A program made the translations under genes and the position numbers. 47,640 nucleotides of DNA from a virus. A model generated the notes under the pieces. That model saw nothing but the letters and a program-made list of their open reading frames with translations, ran no database searches and was not told where the DNA came from. The stretch covers positions 1 to 47,640 of IMG/VR virus record IMGVR_UViG_3300035670_000351, one strand, 5' to 3'. Of the stretch, positions 794 to 47,640 are shown piece by piece. Position 1 is the stretch's first letter; each line of letters begins with the position of its first letter.

Positions 794-1023
794 AATTTTA
801 CCTTTTTTAACATGAAGTCAAGAGTTCTGAATTTTGTACCGTTTTCCAGCAAAACAGTATATATTTTTTTCTCTTCGTCGTATTCTAAAATAACGCCGAC
901 TTTGTCAGCTAATAATTCACCAATAACGAAGCTGTTAGGGTCATCGACAGTCCTAATAAGATCGCCCGGCTGAAACTTCTGCCTCCTAATTCTTTTTTTT
1001 ATCTGTCTATCATCATTTTTCAT
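790..1023 (-). CDS. Small SH3-like barrel protein (PGDLI type) with basic N-terminus
   Basis: 77 aa. The first 16 residues are strongly basic. FQPGDLIRTVDD follows and opens a probable small beta-barrel with alternating strands (GELLADKVGVIL, IYTVLLENG). The PGDLI opening places it in the same family as 1-117, 127-360 and 26290-26532. It overlaps the upstream nucleotidyltransferase gene by 11 bases and the downstream zinc-ribbon gene by 4, so it sits within one operon. Function unknown. Confidence 0.65.
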   Translation of the reverse strand: MKNDDRQIKKRIRRQKFQPGDLIRTVDDPNSFVIGELLADKVGVILEYDEEKKIYTVLLENGTKFRTLDFMLKKVKL

Positions 1024-1969
1024 TTTCTGTCTTCAGTCTATTTTTATTGGCAATTAATGACATTAAGTCTAATTGGTCGTAAGAATCTAGGATTAAGGAG
1101 GCCATCAAAATATTTTCTGAATCCCAACGCCAAATCATTTCTTTGACTTTACCTTGTAGTTGTTTAATATTGACCTTGCGATCCCACATCGTCATTCCAT
1201 CTTCTGAATTAATCTTTTGAGCAAGTTTCAAAGCAGTCTGCGAAAGAAGTTTTTGAGATTCACTACTAATTCTAAGATCGTGGCGCATCGACCATTTTGC
1301 AGAACGCCAAATCAAGTTATCTTTATCGCCTCTATAAATTTCTAACTCTCCTTTTTTTTCACAATCAAACCAACGCTTAGTATAGTGAAATCCCTTGTTG
1401 TCTAAATAACATTGAGCATTAACGATATCAAAAGAATCAAGAATGAATGCTGGTTCATCAGTTACTTTTGTAATAGCTTGAATCAACAAGTTACCAAAGA
1501 AATATTCAACGCCCCAGCCAGCTAAAGTTGGACAACTTCCAGCTGGATACATGTCTAATACCTTGTAGTGCTCTATTTCTTTGTTCAAATAATTTACTAC
1601 TGCATTACTAACATCGTCTGTCCTAAAATAGAAATCAATATCGCCCGCGCCGGATTTCCAGAAACGATTTTTGAGTCTCAAGTCTTGTTCCTTGGGAATT
1701 CTAAAGGTAGGCATGACGAGATATTCTTCGACTCGATTTAACGGATCATCATTTTTATGTCGCGGCTCGCCATCGGGCAAAGTTCCCCACGCTAACTCTG
1801 AAAACAACCATCTACCAATAACTCTAGCAGAACCGCCTGATATATAGCCCCCGCGAGCTAAAACGCCATCGAGAGTATCTAAAACTCGTGGAATAAACAC
1901 TTTCGTTCGAACGAACTTTTTTCTAAGTAGCTGTGCTGGATTACATGAAAGTGTTTCAAATGTCAGCAT
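1013..1969 (-). CDS. Nucleotidyltransferase-fold protein
   Basis: 318 aa. Residues 44-49 (SGGSAR) followed by GDIDFYF with Asp110 and Asp112 match the G-[GS]-S and D-x-D signature of the pol-beta/nucleotidyltransferase superfamily. This is the arrangement used for metal-dependent NMP transfer. An insert of about 60 residues separates the two motifs. The C-terminal half is helical and unrecognised. It could be a terminal nucleotidyltransferase acting on RNA or a small molecule, or an aminoglycoside-type enzyme; the substrate cannot be told from sequence. It heads a run of small overlapping genes. Confidence 0.6.
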   Translation of the reverse strand: MLTFETLSCNPAQLLRKKFVRTKVFIPRVLDTLDGVLARGGYISGGSARVIGRWLFSELAWGTLPDGEPRHKNDDPLNRVEEYLVMPTFRIPKEQDLRLKNRFWKSGAGDIDFYFRTDDVSNAVVNYLNKEIEHYKVLDMYPAGSCPTLAGWGVEYFFGNLLIQAITKVTDEPAFILDSFDIVNAQCYLDNKGFHYTKRWFDCEKKGELEIYRGDKDNLIWRSAKWSMRHDLRISSESQKLLSQTALKLAQKINSEDGMTMWDRKVNIKQLQGKVKEMIWRWDSENILMASLILDSYDQLDLMSLIANKNRLKTENEK

Positions 1970-2004
1970 ACTTCTATTTTATCCCGAAGTTATCTAATAT
2001 TGCA

Positions 2005-2322
2005 CTAATCGAATCGTTTTGAAATCTTCATCCAAATTCCCCAAAGAACCGGGACTGCGATCCAATGAAGACACAGCATCCATGATATCGGCATTCCTGC
2101 ATAAAATATAGGATGAACAAATTTTCCTAACGTCCAAAAAATGGTTGGAAACAGAACATCTTCTATTATTTCCCACGCAACCGCAATCACCAACAAAGAA
2201 ATCCCTCCTTTCGTGAGTAATTTCTTTAGTTCGATCGCACTAAAATGTTGTACCTTGTGTTCGAGACGATGTTTACACCACAAAAAAGCTTTTTTCAAAT
2301 TAGAAAAAGTATTTAGTTTCAT
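2005..2322 (-). CDS. Two-span membrane protein
   Basis: About 105 aa from ATG 2322; a TTG lies two codons upstream. A basic, helical N-terminus precedes a hydrophobic segment (GISLLVIAVAW) and a second aromatic-rich stretch ending LHWIAVPVLWGIWM. These suggest two transmembrane helices with a Lys-rich tail. It is divergent from the endolysin gene at 2355. Size and topology allow a holin-like role beside an endolysin, but the opposite strand and lack of a recognisable family keep this speculative. Confidence 0.6.
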   Translation of the reverse strand: MKLNTFSNLKKAFLWCKHRLEHKVQHFSAIELKKLLTKGGISLLVIAVAWEIIEDVLFPTIFWTLGKFVHPIFYAGMPISWMLCLHWIAVPVLWGIWMKISKRFD

Positions 2323-16435: not shown

Positions 16436-17020
16436 TCACTGCTCCTTTACGTACTTCTTGATTGCGCCTTTCGTAATACGTTGCTCGGGTGGAACAAAAT
16501 CCATTTCGAGTAGATCAAAGAAATCTTGTTCTTCGTACACGGGCAATTGTGTTCCATCTGGCATCGTTGGCATACAATCGGTCATTCGGCCACCGCCAGA
16601 CATTTTCTTCCATCGGCCAAAAATCCCGGGGACGAAACCATGGAAGGCATTGCCATCAGGAGATGCGCCACTACCGGTTCGCATCATATATAGACCGCCC
16701 CAGTTTTCGGGTGTAGCCAAGAAAACATCGAGGTTCATTCCCTCCGTCAATCGGACACGAAGATACTTCGCCGACACCTTGGGCGTCCACGGAATAGCTC
16801 CAGGAACTCCAGGCTTGATGTGTTGACCAACTTCTTCCAGCAGCGCAATCAATTTTTCGCGACTGGCAGGGATACCACAAATTTCAATATCACCAACGAT
16901 TTCTTTTCGTCGACGAATCGAACCGGCAACTTCTACTCGATCCATCGAATGGACGATGTGTTCACGAACTTTATTTGCAATTTTTTCCGCCTCAACGAGG
17001 TCGATCTTTCCGATGCCCAT
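16436..17020 (-). CDS. PolX/pol-beta-type nucleotidyltransferase domain
   Basis: 194 aa. GSIRRRKEIVGDIEI (33-47) and LDVFLA (97-102) give the G-S-x-R-R and carboxylates Asp44, Glu46 and Asp98 of family X polymerases. ENWGGLYMMRTGS and the C-terminal LPVYEEQDFFDLLEMDFVPPEQR match the palm/thumb of bacterial PolX. The N-terminal 8-kDa helix-hairpin-helix region and C-terminal PHP domain of bacterial PolX are absent, so this is a minimal core. It may fill short gaps, for instance after the glycosylase encoded at 13101. Confidence 0.8.
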   Translation of the reverse strand: MGIGKIDLVEAEKIANKVREHIVHSMDRVEVAGSIRRRKEIVGDIEICGIPASREKLIALLEEVGQHIKPGVPGAIPWTPKVSAKYLRVRLTEGMNLDVFLATPENWGGLYMMRTGSGASPDGNAFHGFVPGIFGRWKKMSGGGRMTDCMPTMPDGTQLPVYEEQDFFDLLEMDFVPPEQRITKGAIKKYVKEQ

Positions 17021-17028
17021 AGATTCAT

Positions 17029-17057
17029 TCTATAGTTTCGTGGTACGAAATTGCATC
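17029..17057 (-). promoter_or_regulatory. Promoter-like GATGCAA-N16-TATAGA
   Basis: GATGCAA (17051-17057), 16 bases, TATAGA (17029-17034), 8 bases before the PolX ATG. It is a weaker relative of the GTGCAAA-N17-TATA[GC]T promoters found at 18355, 20400 and 20666. Confidence 0.4.
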
Positions 17058-17451
17058 AAACTAGTGGTAACCAAGCGCTCTTATTCGAAAATGATTTATA
17101 TAGCCAGCAACCTTGAGTTAACACATAAGCGTATTCATAATCACCTTCTACTTGGTACAAGTCTTCGAATTCATCGATGACTAACTCTTCACCACGATCT
17201 CTGTGATAAGCAGTCGTCCATCCATTTTTCGCAGGAGTTTCGAGGTCTTCAAATTCATGCTTGTCTCCAAGCGAAGGACGAAGAACTGAAATCGACCCCA
17301 ACGAAACGAGCGCTTTAACCTTGTCTTCGTCTGTGTAGTGTTTTTTCAATAAACTGCCCACGCCATCCGGATATCCGTCAAAGTGACAGTAAATACCTTT
17401 AATCTTACCTGAACCTTCGTCTTCGATTCCAATAAACGCATGAGTTGCCAT
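17056..17451 (-). CDS. Phage protein of the YCHxDGYPxGVG family
   Basis: 131 aa from ATG 17451, with GGAG upstream; the frame could extend to 17466. FIGIEDEGSGKIKGIYCHFDGYPDGVGSLL-type sequence (conserved core YCHFDGYPDGVG) is a well-known small phage/bacterial family in which a Tyr-Cys-His-x-Asp-Gly core is followed by KVxALVSLGSIS. Function unknown. It is coupled to the preceding gene, whose TGA lies within its leader. Confidence 0.7.
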   Translation of the reverse strand: MATHAFIGIEDEGSGKIKGIYCHFDGYPDGVGSLLKKHYTDEDKVKALVSLGSISVLRPSLGDKHEFEDLETPAKNGWTTAYHRDRGEELVIDEFEDLYQVEGDYEYAYVLTQGCWLYKSFSNKSAWLPLV

Positions 17452-18177: not shown

Positions 18178-18348
18178 TCACTTCAAATATTGAGGAGGAC
18201 GTACCTTCGATAACTCGAATGCTTCTTTCGTTTTCTTCGTCGCTTCTTCTACTAAGTTTGCTTCATCCTGAAAATTCATCATTCTCAAAAAATATTTCAG
18301 ATTTTCAAGTTGACGAAGAGAATCTTCGTAATTCTGTGTCGTATCCAT
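18178..18348 (-). CDS. 56-aa helical protein with its own promoter
   Basis: ATG 18348 to TGA 18178. The product (starts MDTTQNYEDSLRQLENL) is a short helical, charged protein. The ATG lies exactly 6 bases from a TATAGT box that is 17 bases from GTGCAAA. The same geometry occurs at two genes around 20.4-20.7 kb, which supports a real, separately transcribed gene. Function unknown. Confidence 0.6.
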   Translation of the reverse strand: MDTTQNYEDSLRQLENLKYFLRMMNFQDEANLVEEATKKTKEAFELSKVRPPQYLK

Positions 18349-18354
18349 AATCTA

Positions 18355-18384
18355 ACTATAACACGCAAAGGAACGCTTTTGCAC
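18355..18384 (-). promoter_or_regulatory. GTGCAAA-N17-TATAGT promoter
   Basis: GTGCAAA (18378-18384), 17 bases, TATAGT (18355-18360), 6 bases, ATG. Identical geometry to the promoters at 20400-20429 and 20666-20695. The short distance to the ATG predicts a leaderless or nearly leaderless transcript. Confidence 0.65.
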
Positions 18385-18385
18385 A

Positions 18386-18685
18386 TCAACTTTCGTTCTG
18401 AAACATCACAACTTTAGGAAGACCATTTATCGTTGCAAGGCCTTCAGCGAGGAATTTCGGTTTAGGCGACCAATGTGTCCATTCGACATTGCGTTTTTTG
18501 ATGACGGTAATTAGTGTTGATTCTTGAAACCAATTCGTACCGATCGCTGAATACAAGACAGGTTCTCCTGCATCGTCAAAAAATCGGCCGCGAGCTTCAT
18601 TTTTCTGGCGTTCTTGCTCGAGCTCTTCCGGTTTTTTTCGGTACCAATAGCGGGTCCCTTTTGGGAGAAGGATCGTTTCATTCAT
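18386..18685 (-). CDS. Unknown small protein, 99 aa
   Basis: Basic N-terminal half (TRYWYRKKPEELEQERQ) and a beta-rich C-terminal half (STLITVIKKRNVEWTHW; GLPKVVMFQNES). Overlaps the Smr-domain gene by 8 bases on the same strand, so probably co-translated. No known family. The beta-rich part could be another small barrel. Confidence 0.55.
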   Translation of the reverse strand: MNETILLPKGTRYWYRKKPEELEQERQKNEARGRFFDDAGEPVLYSAIGTNWFQESTLITVIKKRNVEWTHWSPKPKFLAEGLATINGLPKVVMFQNES

Positions 18686-18917
18686 ACTCGTGCCATGTTT
18701 GGATTTTTAAGTATCCCGGATTTTTTGAATCGACTGCGAATATTTCTAGATCGTAATTTCTCAACACGGACCTAACTATCGACTTCATCTTCGGTGAATG
18801 TCCAGTGATGATATGGAATTCTTCATTTGCTCGCCAGTGGCTATTTATAAAAGAATGAATGAGACTTTCTACTTCTTCGTGTGCAATTCCATGAAGATCT
18901 AATGTCCTTATAGGCAT
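18678..18917 (-). CDS. Stand-alone Smr domain protein
   Basis: 79 aa. LDLHG (6-10) followed by a helix, then IITGHS (TGHS 38-41, canonical TGxG) and GYLKI at the end match the Smr domain of MutS2 and SmrB-type endonucleases. It is just the domain, with no MutS part. Smr domains cut RNA or branched DNA. SmrB-type proteins cleave mRNA at collided ribosomes, so a role in mRNA turnover or host take-over is possible. A 14-bp palindrome overlaps its predicted transcription start. Confidence 0.75.
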   Translation of the reverse strand: MPIRTLDLHGIAHEEVESLIHSFINSHWRANEEFHIITGHSPKMKSIVRSVLRNYDLEIFAVDSKNPGYLKIQTWHEYE

Positions 18918-18922
18918 ATATT

Positions 18923-18941
18923 TGCAACGCGTTGCATTATA
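18923..18941 (-). promoter_or_regulatory. TATAAT box followed by 14-bp palindromic operator
   Basis: TATAAT (18936-18941, minus strand) is immediately followed by the perfect palindrome TGCAACGCGTTGCA (18923-18936), which would cover the transcription start of the smr gene. This is the usual position of a repressor operator. No good -35 is visible; the region upstream is the tRNA 3' end. Confidence 0.45.
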
Positions 18942-18957
18942 TTAATACAAAATTTTG

Positions 18958-19228
18958 CTGATGGGGTAGGATTCGAACCTACACATCGTCGCATTACTTA
19001 CCACTTCAGTTTTCACTGCCGATATTGTCGTTCGTGGTCTGGACTATCCCATCATCCGTTCTGGATGGACCCATTATAGTCTCTGCACCTCCCGGTTTCC
19101 CGGTTTGGCTCAGGATTGCCATGCCTATTCGGCGAAGGGTTCCCTGAATTTTGAGTCTTTTCATCCAGGAATTCCTTCCTGGCGCTGCCGCGTGACAGTG
19201 CGAAGCCTTACCATTTGGCTACCCATCA
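18958..19228 (-). tRNA. tRNA-Asn(GUU) interrupted by a group I intron
   Basis: Exons are 19195-19228 (34 nt) and 18958-18996 (39 nt), joining to a 73-nt tRNA. Acceptor TGATGGG pairs with CCCATCA, discriminator G. D arm GCC/GGC with a GG-containing loop. Anticodon stem TCGCA/TGCGA. T arm GTAGG-TTCGAAT-CCTAC. The joined anticodon loop is CUGUUAA, giving anticodon GUU, with the intron between bases 35 and 36. CCA is not encoded (CAA follows). The gene reads towards the smr gene. Confidence 0.88.
18997..19194 (-). ncRNA. Group I self-splicing intron (198 nt, no ORF)
   Basis: Exon CUGU pairs with intron GCAG to form P1 with the required terminal U-G pair, and the intron ends in G. P2 is CCAGGAA/TTCCTGG. 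P3 is GACUC/GGGUC. P4 is UCAGG/CCUGA. A CCGG-GAAA-CCGG hairpin fits P6. P7 is GACUAU/AUAGUC within the conserved CAGAGACUA (R) and AUAGUCC (S) core. P8 is CAUCC/GGAUG. P9 is CAGU-GAAA-ACUG. The minimal size leaves no room for an endonuclease gene. Confidence 0.92.
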
Positions 19229-19425
19229 ATATCTTTCACTTCTTCTTTTTTCAATAGACCAAGCTCAATGAGCTCTTTTCCAGTTATAACTTTGAGGTTT
19301 AACGGGAATTGACTCCATTTTGCTTCATCTCTTGATACTTTATAACCTTTGATTTCAATGTATAAATTTTTCTCTATTAAGAAAAAGTCTGGCGTGTAAT
19401 AGGAATCTTTACCCTCAAATTGAGG
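19219..19425 (-). pseudogene. C-terminal remnant of a PD-(D/E)XK homing-type endonuclease
   Basis: A 68-codon open frame without a start codon begins right after, and in frame with, the TGA of 19426-19644. It ends at TAG 19219, inside the tRNA 5' exon. It encodes YYTPDFFLIEKNLYIEIKGY, the Y-x-P-D-F-x(8-10)-[IV]-E-[IV]-K-G catalytic core, then DEAKWSQFP and LKVITGKELIELGLL. This is typical of the C-terminal nuclease domain of phage homing endonucleases. The N-terminal half is missing. Its position beside an intron-bearing tRNA suggests the remains of the intron's mobility enzyme. Confidence 0.75.
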
Positions 19426-19644
19426 TCATTTATCGCGCGTGAGATAGAGAACACAGGCATACGCAATGCCGAAGTAAATCAAAAATGAAGAAAGGGTAAA
19501 AGAAGCAAGACCAAAAAATCCGCCAATTGCCCACGCGAGGCCACCGAAAGTAAATCCGAGAATCGGAGCGATGAGCGTGAACCTCGCAAGGGTTGGATAG
19601 ATTAATGATATCGCTATGAAACCGATGATGAACCAAATAGGCAT
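19426..19644 (-). CDS. Small two-span membrane protein
   Basis: 72 aa, almost entirely hydrophobic with Gly-rich turns (GFTFGGLAWAIGGFFGLASF) and a charged end (LTRDK). AGGAAAAGG precedes the ATG. Two transmembrane helices are likely. The endonuclease remnant begins in the same frame right after its stop, probably by rearrangement. Function unknown. Confidence 0.6.
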   Translation of the reverse strand: MPIWFIIGFIAISLIYPTLARFTLIAPILGFTFGGLAWAIGGFFGLASFTLSSFLIYFGIAYACVLYLTRDK

Positions 19645-19664
19645 TACCTTTTCCTTCTATTCTA

Positions 19665-20393
19665 TCAGAACTTCGTGGCATCGATCCATTGGACTTCGCC
19701 CTTGGCGTTCTTCACACCTGCGCGGGCATTGAATTTGCCGTAGTATTTGGAGACGCCGACCCAGAACACCTTACCAGTGAACCCATCGACTGTGACCTCG
19801 GTACCTTTGGCCGGGATTCGGGCCAGGAGCTTCTCCGCCTCCGACTTGAGGGCATCCTCCTTAGCCTGCTTCTTGGCGTACCGAGCAGCACGCTTGGCCT
19901 TCTCGGCCTCCTGCGCGGCCTGGCGAATCGCGTACTGGCGCTTGTCCTCAGCGATCTTAGCCTCGAGGACGGCCTTGTGGTGAGCCTCCCAGGTGGCCAA
20001 TTCATCGTAGACCTCAACACCGCTGTGAAGCAGAAGGTCGCCCATGGTGTCGACGACCGGCGCGAGGCTGAAGCCGTTGCGATGCACGAAGAGATTGGTG
20101 CAGTCGACCCAGGCGAACCGGTCGCCGATGTCCAGGGCCTCGACCTCAACCCAGGGCGCGTCGGTGGCGTAGGCACGGCTGCCGACGTGGTGGTGACGGG
20201 GCTTCTTACCCTCGTGGCCGAGGTAGACCAGGGCGTAGGTGCAGGTGGTGGACCGCATGTCTGTGTAGTCCAGTGTATCCGACCAATTGCGGGTCTCCGT
20301 GGTCGTCTCGATCCGGATGACTCGCCCGTGGTAGAGCGTCTCGGTGTTTGTGTAGAGGCCGTTGGCGTCACAACTGGTCTTCTTGATCGGCAT
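19665..20393 (-). CDS. G+C-rich gene: coiled-coil protein with KOW/SH3-like C-terminus
   Basis: 242 aa from ATG 20393, chosen because the GTGCAAA/TATAGT promoter ends 6 bases before it. The N-terminal half is beta-rich and His/Thr-rich. Residues about 140-200 are an Ala/Lys/Glu-rich coiled coil. The C-terminus (AKGTEVTVDGFTGKVFWVG and GVKNAKGEVQWIDA) resembles the G-T-x-V-x-V...G-x-V-F-W-x-G small domain common in actinobacterial proteins and their phages. The gene is much richer in G+C than its neighbours, with G/C-ending codons, a sign of transfer. Confidence 0.65.
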   Translation of the reverse strand: MPIKKTSCDANGLYTNTETLYHGRVIRIETTTETRNWSDTLDYTDMRSTTCTYALVYLGHEGKKPRHHHVGSRAYATDAPWVEVEALDIGDRFAWVDCTNLFVHRNGFSLAPVVDTMGDLLLHSGVEVYDELATWEAHHKAVLEAKIAEDKRQYAIRQAAQEAEKAKRAARYAKKQAKEDALKSEAEKLLARIPAKGTEVTVDGFTGKVFWVGVSKYYGKFNARAGVKNAKGEVQWIDATKF

Positions 20394-20399
20394 GGTTCT

Positions 20400-20429
20400 A
20401 CTATATCCTATTCGTTGATGATTTTGCAC
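20400..20429 (-). promoter_or_regulatory. GTGCAAA-N17-TATAGT promoter
   Basis: GTGCAAA (20423-20429), 17 bases, TATAGT (20400-20405), 6 bases, ATG. The whole stretch from TGGTGCAAA to the ATG aligns without gaps with the promoter of the upstream gene at 20666-20695, so it is a near-duplicate. Confidence 0.7.
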
Positions 20430-20434
20430 CAGGT

Positions 20435-20659
20435 TCAGTGAGAATCGATGCGAGTGGAGTGGTTCACCTCGGACCCCGGGGTGACCGCGTGGAGCTCGGT
20501 CCAGACGACGTCGTCGGAGCAACCACCACCGTAGACCGCTTGGTCCCGGAGTGACTCGAACTTGACCCGGGCCGAGGCCTCGTCGAGGAAGACGAAGGTG
20601 GCCGTGTCGGTGTTGGAGTAGGAATTTGCGCCCTGCTGCACAACGAAGATCTTGTCCAT
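20435..20659 (-). CDS. G+C-rich gene, unknown 74-aa protein
   Basis: Starts MDKIFVVQQGANSYSN. The body alternates strands and a helix (TFVFLDEASARVKFESLRDQ), with a Gly-rich turn and a final beta stretch. No family recognised. High G+C and the shared promoter link it to 19665-20393; the two probably arrived together. Confidence 0.6.
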   Translation of the reverse strand: MDKIFVVQQGANSYSNTDTATFVFLDEASARVKFESLRDQAVYGGGCSDDVVWTELHAVTPGSEVNHSTRIDSH

Positions 20660-20665
20660 GATTCT

Positions 20666-20695
20666 AGTATATCTCTTTCATTAGTGACTTTGCAC
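20666..20695 (-). promoter_or_regulatory. GTGCAAA-N17-TATACT promoter
   Basis: GTGCAAA (20689-20695), 17 bases, TATACT (20666-20671), 6 bases, ATG at 20659. It follows directly on a terminator (20697-20728), so this is the start of a new transcription unit. Confidence 0.7.
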
Positions 20696-20696
20696 C

Positions 20697-20728
20697 AAAA
20701 AAATCTATTGAAAGCTATTTTCAATAGA
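20697..20728 (-). terminator. Intrinsic terminator of the minus-strand unit ending at 20821
   Basis: On the minus strand TCTATTGAAA and TTTCAATAGA form a 10-bp stem around a 5-nt loop, followed at once by seven T. The stem is A+T-rich but perfect. It lies between the stop of 20821-21120 and the next promoter. Confidence 0.7.
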
Positions 20729-46900: not shown

Positions 46901-47553
46901 ATAACACAACGGACCGCCAAGACACGCAGTGCTGACCATGAGATGTCCGCCACTCGCTGCCTCTTTTAGCATCGAATAATCGATTCGAGGAAACCTATAG
47001 AAGCCCTCCAGATAGCCTTTAGAAACTAAGTGAAATAACCTTTGTAGACCAATGGACGTTTTTGGAAGCACAACCAAGTGGTGTCTGCGCTTCACTGGAT
47101 CGTTGTATTTGCCCGACTTCGTCTCCTCCTCGTTTTCGATGGTCAAAGTAGACTCTTCGGTAGTTACATCGATAGTCTCGTCGTTGCTATCTACTACTGC
47201 CGTAATTGGTGTTATGATAGATTCGTCTTTTGCAGGTTTCTCTTTCGATTTTTCAAGATCCTTCTTCCATTGCTGTAAATCAGGATGCACGTACATTTCG
47301 CAACCAGGCACGAACTTAAACTTCTTACCTGATTTACGCAATTTTTCAGCATGAAGATATGCGTGACCAAATCCATTCATGTGGCCATGGTCGGTTAGTG
47401 ACCATGCGTCCATTCCATTTTCGATGACGTAGTTTATATGTTCTTGTGGCAAATCCATTCCATCAAAGGTCGTTACGAGAATCCGCTGTGCGAGTGCAGA
47501 CCGATAAACCGGTGGGGCACGCGCACGGGATTCTTTTTTTCTCCTGTGTTCAT
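43955..47553 (-). CDS. dnaE: DNA polymerase III alpha subunit (DnaE), frame-broken near the 5' end
   Basis: Start ATG 47553, preceded by AAGGA, encodes MNTGEKKNPVRV then RFIGLHSHSGFS, the first PHP motif. It meets TAA at 47473-47475. The main frame (47458-43955, 1167 codons) resumes with TTFDGMDLP and carries SLTDHGHMNG (PHP), LGPGRGSAAGA, PDIDSD (catalytic Asp, about residue 475), GRHAGGVII and a C-terminal OB fold. A -1 shift or a 5-nt skip at TCGTAACG restores one protein. Without it the PHP metal site loses its first histidines. Phage-encoded DnaE replaces PolB or PolA as replicase. Confidence 0.9.
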
Positions 47554-47564
47554 GATTGATTCCT

Positions 47565-47640
47565 TCATTTGCCTTCCCAATTTGGGATTAGATGTTTATA
47601 TCTTACTGCCAGATCTCTATACTTTGCACCATCAATTAAT
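47565..47640 (-). CDS. C-terminus of an unknown gene, cut by window edge
   Basis: Open frame to TGA 47565 with at least 24 residues, ending YKHLIPNWEGK. It lies 11 bases upstream of the dnaE start, so it is probably in the same operon. Too short to identify. Confidence 0.5.
   Translation of the reverse strand, partial: LIDGAKYRDLAVRYKHLIPNWEGK

Follow-up and report, generated by a model that had tools for sequence, protein, structure and literature searches.

The window analysed here is the entire IMG/VR virus record IMGVR_UViG_3300035670_000351 (47,640 bases). It carries three exact copies of the promoter-like pattern GTGCAAA-N17-TATA[GC]T, and only three, all on the minus strand (18355-18384, 20400-20429 and 20666-20695) and each separated by 6 nucleotides (nt) from an ATG (at 18348, 20393 and 20659, respectively). 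The best explanation, to which we give a probability of roughly 80%, is that large, so far uncultivated phages of the gp23 type have a dedicated class of promoters with sigma70 geometry, which the pattern marks. The nucleotide sequences of the window and of related phages show directly that the class exists, that it keeps a set distance from start codons and is conserved, and where it has exceptions. Searches of the open-access literature turned up no account of the motif.

An exact scan of 2.9 million viral contigs with the 16 fixed bases of the pattern returned 91 stretches; chance matches occur among the single ones, and a few records hold many sites, up to ten per stretch. These multi-site sequences are related IMG/VR phage records of up to 278 kb, and a search by an independent route, with the protein of 242 amino acids encoded behind the 20393 site, led to nine viral-contig loci that lie mostly in the same records. 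The reversed pattern (without the ATG) did not occur once in 16 related records. In the unfiltered exact set from the fetched stretches and the window, 104 of 111 sites have an ATG, and one more a GTG, exactly six nt past the -10 box. A promoter model of 38 columns, ending at -1 when the A of the ATG is counted as +1 and excluding the start codon, identified 479 distinct sites at or above its threshold of 12 bits, compared with 1 to 5 in reversed sequences. The dedicated class proposed in the preliminary description is therefore well supported by sequence, and the enrichment before other genes that it called for was found in the related phages, with hundreds of sites and nearly none in the reversed controls.

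The conserved sequence outgrows the two boxes. The logo displays a C at -38, GTGCAAAG at -36 to -29, T(T)C and GA(A) in the spacer, a G at -14, TATA[CG]T at -12 to -7 and [AG][AG][GA]ACC abutting the ATG, and conservation ends about 55 nt upstream of the start codon. The class consensus thus comprises a -35 box TGCAAA(G), a spacer of 17 nt and a -10 box that relaxes to TAnnnT in the iterated model, so that the 17-nt spacing and a TAnnnT at -12 to -7 agree with sigma70 geometry. A pyrimidine at -1, an A at +1, a G at -14 and a purine-rich discriminator are likewise features that fit sigma70 initiation.

The placement of start codons points to leaderless transcripts. The start codon lies exactly at the predicted +1 in 356 of the 479 sites and within 2 nt of it in a further 27. 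At 42 sites the start follows 11-158 nt downstream with a Shine-Dalgarno match, and the remaining sites include transfer RNA (tRNA) genes that begin 4-13 nt past the predicted +1. The block marks a set position on the DNA, and where no ATG falls there, a leader with a ribosome site or a tRNA often follows. As in TA-led genes, a TANNNT is found about 12 nt before the start, and the 38 nt upstream of the start are occupied by the promoter, with no Shine-Dalgarno sequence; the six-base stretches between -10 box and ATG in the window's three sites (AGAATC, AGAACC and TAGATT) hold none either. Shine-Dalgarno sequences do occur in the window, upstream of 16 of its 71 open reading frames (ORFs) compared with 1 of 71 control positions. 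The preliminary description had predicted leaderless transcripts, and with three quarters of the sites having their start codon exactly at the predicted +1 this is well supported by sequence; most messenger RNAs (mRNAs) of the class would very probably be translated as leaderless messages. In four records, an ORF of eight codons (METIKIGI) has its ATG at the promoter +1, with a Shine-Dalgarno site and the gene proper after it (G003 69991, plus strand; G004 210425, G007 2122 and G013 347, minus strand); it is possibly a leaderless upstream ORF.

Promoter and gene have been kept together across the related phages. Orthologues of the 242-residue gene were found in 12 records (two of which, G005 and G006, are near copies) at 34-91% identity, and the promoter is present in all 12. 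The ATG is at +1 in 11 of them; the G008 gene instead starts 43 nt farther on, after a leader containing GGAG. The protein encoded behind the 20659 site has homologues with 58-60% identity, and the homologous genes in G003 and G005 have the promoter at their ATG.

Within the window, matches with at most two mismatches numbered 7 against 2.24 expected, a count that none of 100 dinucleotide shuffles reached. The promoter model separated the three exact sites into two strong members, with 35.0 bits for 20659 and 33.7 bits for 20393, and a third at 18348 with 10.2 bits. The proposal of three identical promoters thus stands for the boxes alone, and 18348 lacks the conserved spacer. The gapless alignment described for the other two, from the -35 box to the ATG, was reproduced with 30 of 39 positions identical. 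The strong promoter at 20660-20697 (minus strand; GTGCAAA 20689-20695, TATACT 20666-20671, spacer TC 20686-20687 and GA 20678-20679) has its predicted +1 at the A of ATG 20659 and precedes a predicted leaderless ORF of 74 amino acids (20435-20659, minus strand) of unassigned function. This protein had no Pfam or PHROG match and no match in the degenerate scan; its homologues were found only by tblastn within the fetched records. The second strong promoter, at 20394-20431 (minus strand; GTGCAAA 20423-20429, TATAGT 20400-20405, spacer TC 20420-20421 and GA 20412-20413), has its predicted +1 at the A of ATG 20393 and precedes the ORF of 242 amino acids (19665-20393, minus strand), also predicted to be leaderless and of unassigned function, which belongs to no Pfam family and has no relative in the known phage collection. 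The match at 18349-18386 (minus strand; GTGCAAA 18378-18384, TATAGT 18355-18360) consists of boxes only, with spacer and discriminator off-family, and precedes a small orphan ORF of 56 amino acids (18178-18348, minus strand) without a homologue among the fetched records.

Of the two weaker relatives listed earlier, the one before 17020 proved to be a genuine weak member and the one before 11927, at -47 bits, is not a member. The former (ATGCAAT-N17-TAGAAT-N6-ATG, 17021-17058, minus strand, 11.1 bits) precedes an ORF of 194 amino acids (16436-17020, minus strand) with a weak match to a DNA polymerase beta thumb below the Pfam cut-off. Its orthologues carry a strong site in G001 (39.4 bits), an intermediate one in G008 (18.3) and vestigial ones in G003 and G004 (2.7 and -3.1), with the best offset identical in all. 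An additional weak site, GTGCAAT-N17-TAAAAT-N6-ATG (1970-2007, minus strand, 15.5 bits), precedes an ORF of 318 amino acids of unassigned function (1013-1969, minus strand), whose G001 orthologue (65% identity) scores 5.6 bits at the same offset.

The genes behind the promoters are mostly small. The 234 downstream proteins have a median length of 74 amino acids and fall into 123 families, mostly of unassigned function; among them are DNA ligase, primase, 5'-3' exonuclease, AAA and RecA/DnaB-like ATPases, a VWA/metallopeptidase protein, RtcB and SIR2, and some sites precede tRNAs. Sites cluster in small-gene islands with a guanine plus cytosine (GC) content of 53-60% in genomes that otherwise have 40-42%, and no class sites were found around the gp23 and sheath genes. 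Third-position GC was 0.81-0.82 for class genes versus 0.34-0.35 for the rest in G000, G003 and G004 (in G000 from three class genes only); in G001, G008 and G009 the difference was smaller and in the same direction. Promoter score correlated with third-position GC in G001, G003, G004 and G005, and not in G008 or G010. Such values would be expected of early genes with strong expression and adaptation to a GC-rich host, although this is a correlation only. The earlier proposal that the class is early thus gains indirect backing from gene content and from the absence of sites near capsid and sheath genes; we regard early timing as probable. Leads to the host were rejected: WhiB was absent, and the nearest capsid proteins belong to phages of unrelated hosts. 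The 484-kb phage LR756508, the capsid relative with the best identity, lacks the pattern. In bacterial genomes, the pattern was seen in three freshwater contigs from metagenome-assembled genomes of conflicting taxonomy and in two probable chance matches. The three contigs (L180, L182 and L184, filed as Proteobacteria, Gammaproteobacteria and Ca. Aquidulcis) have several copies of the class promoter each and are therefore probably misbinned phage DNA.

The spacer holds an element of its own, TC-N6-GA, whose internal distance is fixed but whose place between the fixed boxes follows either of two registers, shifted by one base. TC and GA are coupled, with 101 and 66 concordant versus 7 and 3 discordant distinct sites (Fisher p = 2e-36, uncorrected for common descent), and both registers were found in each of the seven records examined. 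In the window, the 20659 and 20393 sites have the second register, and 18348 has no TC-N6-GA. Direct contact by sigma would be expected to hold a single register, whereas two are observed, and a separate dimeric protein therefore fits better. We see about an even chance that TC-N6-GA is the site of a putative spacer-binding dimeric regulator acting on all copies together. A hairpin in the spacer was rejected: it is disfavoured because the N6 has no general internal complementarity, and one weak outer pair occurs in one register only.

Which polymerase would read the class was approached through the genes of the phages. Multisubunit RNA polymerase (PF00562, PF00623) was not found in seven records in a search whose controls were positive, although very divergent subunits could escape it, and the host core enzyme is therefore likely used; the corresponding search for single-subunit RNA polymerase gave no signal from its controls. 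We regard it as fairly likely that the host sigma factor reads the class promoters. However, it is possible, if unlikely, that the same promoters with the same leaderless starts are read by a phage protein of the sigma70 family with a separate region 4.2, and that the class is middle rather than early. Such a split factor exists in G003, G004, G008 and G009, where an RpoD-like protein ends behind region 4.1 and the region 4.2-like helix is found on a small protein of its own (in G004, L115:3263-4096 and L113:3739-4017, both minus strand; homologues in the other three). The small protein contains Cys and is encoded about 40 kb from the RpoD-like gene in G003 and G004. In favour of this reader, the class -35 is far from TTGACA, and the recognition helix of the small protein departs from RpoD at positions that we take to be those reading the -35. 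Nevertheless, a more natural, late target is at hand. A second motif, ATA[GC]TTAT, recalls the late promoters of T4 and ranks first in strand asymmetry among 8-mers before genes outside the class; its strong asymmetry (18 versus 3, 15 versus 2) was seen in G001, G003, G004 and G008, and the motif stands before sheath genes in G009 as well. ATACTTAT is found upstream of the sheath genes. Genome-wide, ATACTTAT was not clearly enriched, its signal appearing only in the strand-asymmetry test upstream of genes. In addition, early genes need to be read before any phage protein exists and no other early class was seen, and G009 has both sigma parts yet few sites. The split sigma factor thus more likely serves ATA[GC]TTAT than the class promoters.

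The remaining explanations fare worse. If the block were an RNA or translation element, such as a ribosome-binding cassette with AAAGG, its position directly before start codons and the AAAGG in many copies would be accounted for; but AAAGG lies 13-18 nt from the ATG, too distant for Shine-Dalgarno pairing, and the block has sigma70 promoter geometry. It also stands before tRNA genes and before genes with a Shine-Dalgarno leader of their own, and is therefore a transcription element, which makes a translation element very improbable. We consider it equally improbable that small genes are being spread by a mobile or recombination cassette whose repeat has no regulatory role. Clustering in GC-rich islands of small genes and the recurrence of near-identical copies between genes would suit it, whereas the diversity of the downstream families, the variation of the six inner spacer bases between preserved half-sites, the retention of the promoter by orthologues of as little as 34% identity and the end of conservation some 55 nt before the ATG do not. 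Chance resemblance among ordinary promoters, conceivable for 18348 alone with its bare boxes and orphan ORF, is refuted for the class as a whole by the shuffles, by the reversed controls and by the conservation seen among related phages.

Several points weigh against a leaderless class read by the host enzyme. Several relatives encode a phage sigma factor, a possible reader of the class, and the -35 TGCAAA agrees with TTGACA at only 3 of 6 positions; because -35 boxes vary widely, this divergence lowers the chance of sigma70 recognition but does not abolish it. Strong sites in the window itself are limited to those at 20659 and 20393. The first training set of the model consisted of exact sites with the start codon at +1, a demand dropped in later rounds. 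About 49 of the 479 sites had no clear start or Shine-Dalgarno sequence under a simple rule, some of them being tRNA genes. Finally, sites are related by descent or duplication, so that counts and p values are not independent.

Under the preferred reading of a dedicated sigma70-type class, the RNA polymerase of the host, carrying the host's primary sigma factor, would most likely read the sites early in infection. Most transcripts would begin with AUG, given the predicted position of +1, and would be translated gene by gene without a Shine-Dalgarno sequence, and a minority of sites would feed a Shine-Dalgarno leader or a tRNA gene. The early output would be many small proteins, some replication enzymes and tRNAs, and a dimeric regulator at TC-N6-GA would probably control all copies jointly. 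More tentatively, these phages may follow a programme in two phases, in which dozens of early single-gene leaderless promoters are switched together via the spacer operator and their genes use codons suited to a GC-rich host, and AT-rich late genes led by Shine-Dalgarno sequences are transcribed from ATA[GC]TTAT with the split phage sigma, the late phase drawing on phage tRNAs of which some come from early promoters; we regard this scheme as speculative.

Two further observations concern other parts of the window. A group I intron match at 19019-19205 (minus strand; 44.3 bits, E 6.6e-10) falls just below the Rfam cut-off of 50 and is flanked on both sides by tRNA-like sequence (about 18955-19230), in which ARAGORN detected no tRNA. 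At about 47470-47552 (minus strand), a DnaE-like DNA polymerase apparently starts at 47552 (MNTGEKKNPVRVPHRFIGLHSHSGFS), meets a TAA and resumes in another frame at 47458, which would reflect a frameshift, an assembly error or a broken start. A match of the promoter model at 47593 was judged a false positive because it lies inside a coding stretch conserved with G008.

We see the class as one more form of sigma70-type leaderless promoter, and not as a system of a new kind. T4, also of the gp23 type, has many extended sigma70-type early promoters before small host-takeover genes, as seen here, but its early mRNAs have leaders with Shine-Dalgarno sites and its box sequences are unlike those of the class. 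The nearest precedents of the class are the TA-led leaderless genes and the phage SigA promoters predicted to be leaderless. TA-led bacterial genes (Zheng 2011, PMC3160421; Zhong 2025, PMC12340547) likewise have a TANNNT a few nt before the start and an expected AUG-first transcript; they are, however, host genes with a -10 box only, whereas the phage class conserves -35, spacer, discriminator and exact distance. In Cluster O mycobacteriophages, the SigA promoters with predicted leaderless transcripts (PMC4351075) are a few operon promoters per genome, in contrast to dozens of single-gene copies of one extended sequence. The start-associated sequences of Cluster K also repeat just before non-structural start codons, half of them with an upstream inverted repeat, but these are 13 bp long, hold AGGAG, have a proposed role in translation and lack -10/-35 geometry (PMC3203893); the 13-bp GGGATAGGAGCCC with its Shine-Dalgarno core, as defined there, is not in the class consensus. 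The very large phages phiKZ and AR9 similarly place one conserved motif before presumed early genes, an AT-rich motif of about 10 nt around -10 that is read by a virion RNA polymerase (PMC7598289, PMC5312081). AR9 leaders measure 26-491 nt, whereas the class is mostly predicted to be leaderless and no multisubunit RNA polymerase gene was found.

If the transcription starts are confirmed, these phages would possess, within one viral group, a set of leaderless promoters of unusual uniformity and number, and gene starts could be called in phages that are rich in small genes without annotation. The class points to a regulator, and likewise to a split sigma factor, both open to direct tests. Since a single promoter type yields mRNAs of both kinds and one orthologous gene has changed from one kind to the other, the class would also offer a natural test of the competition between leaderless and Shine-Dalgarno mRNAs.

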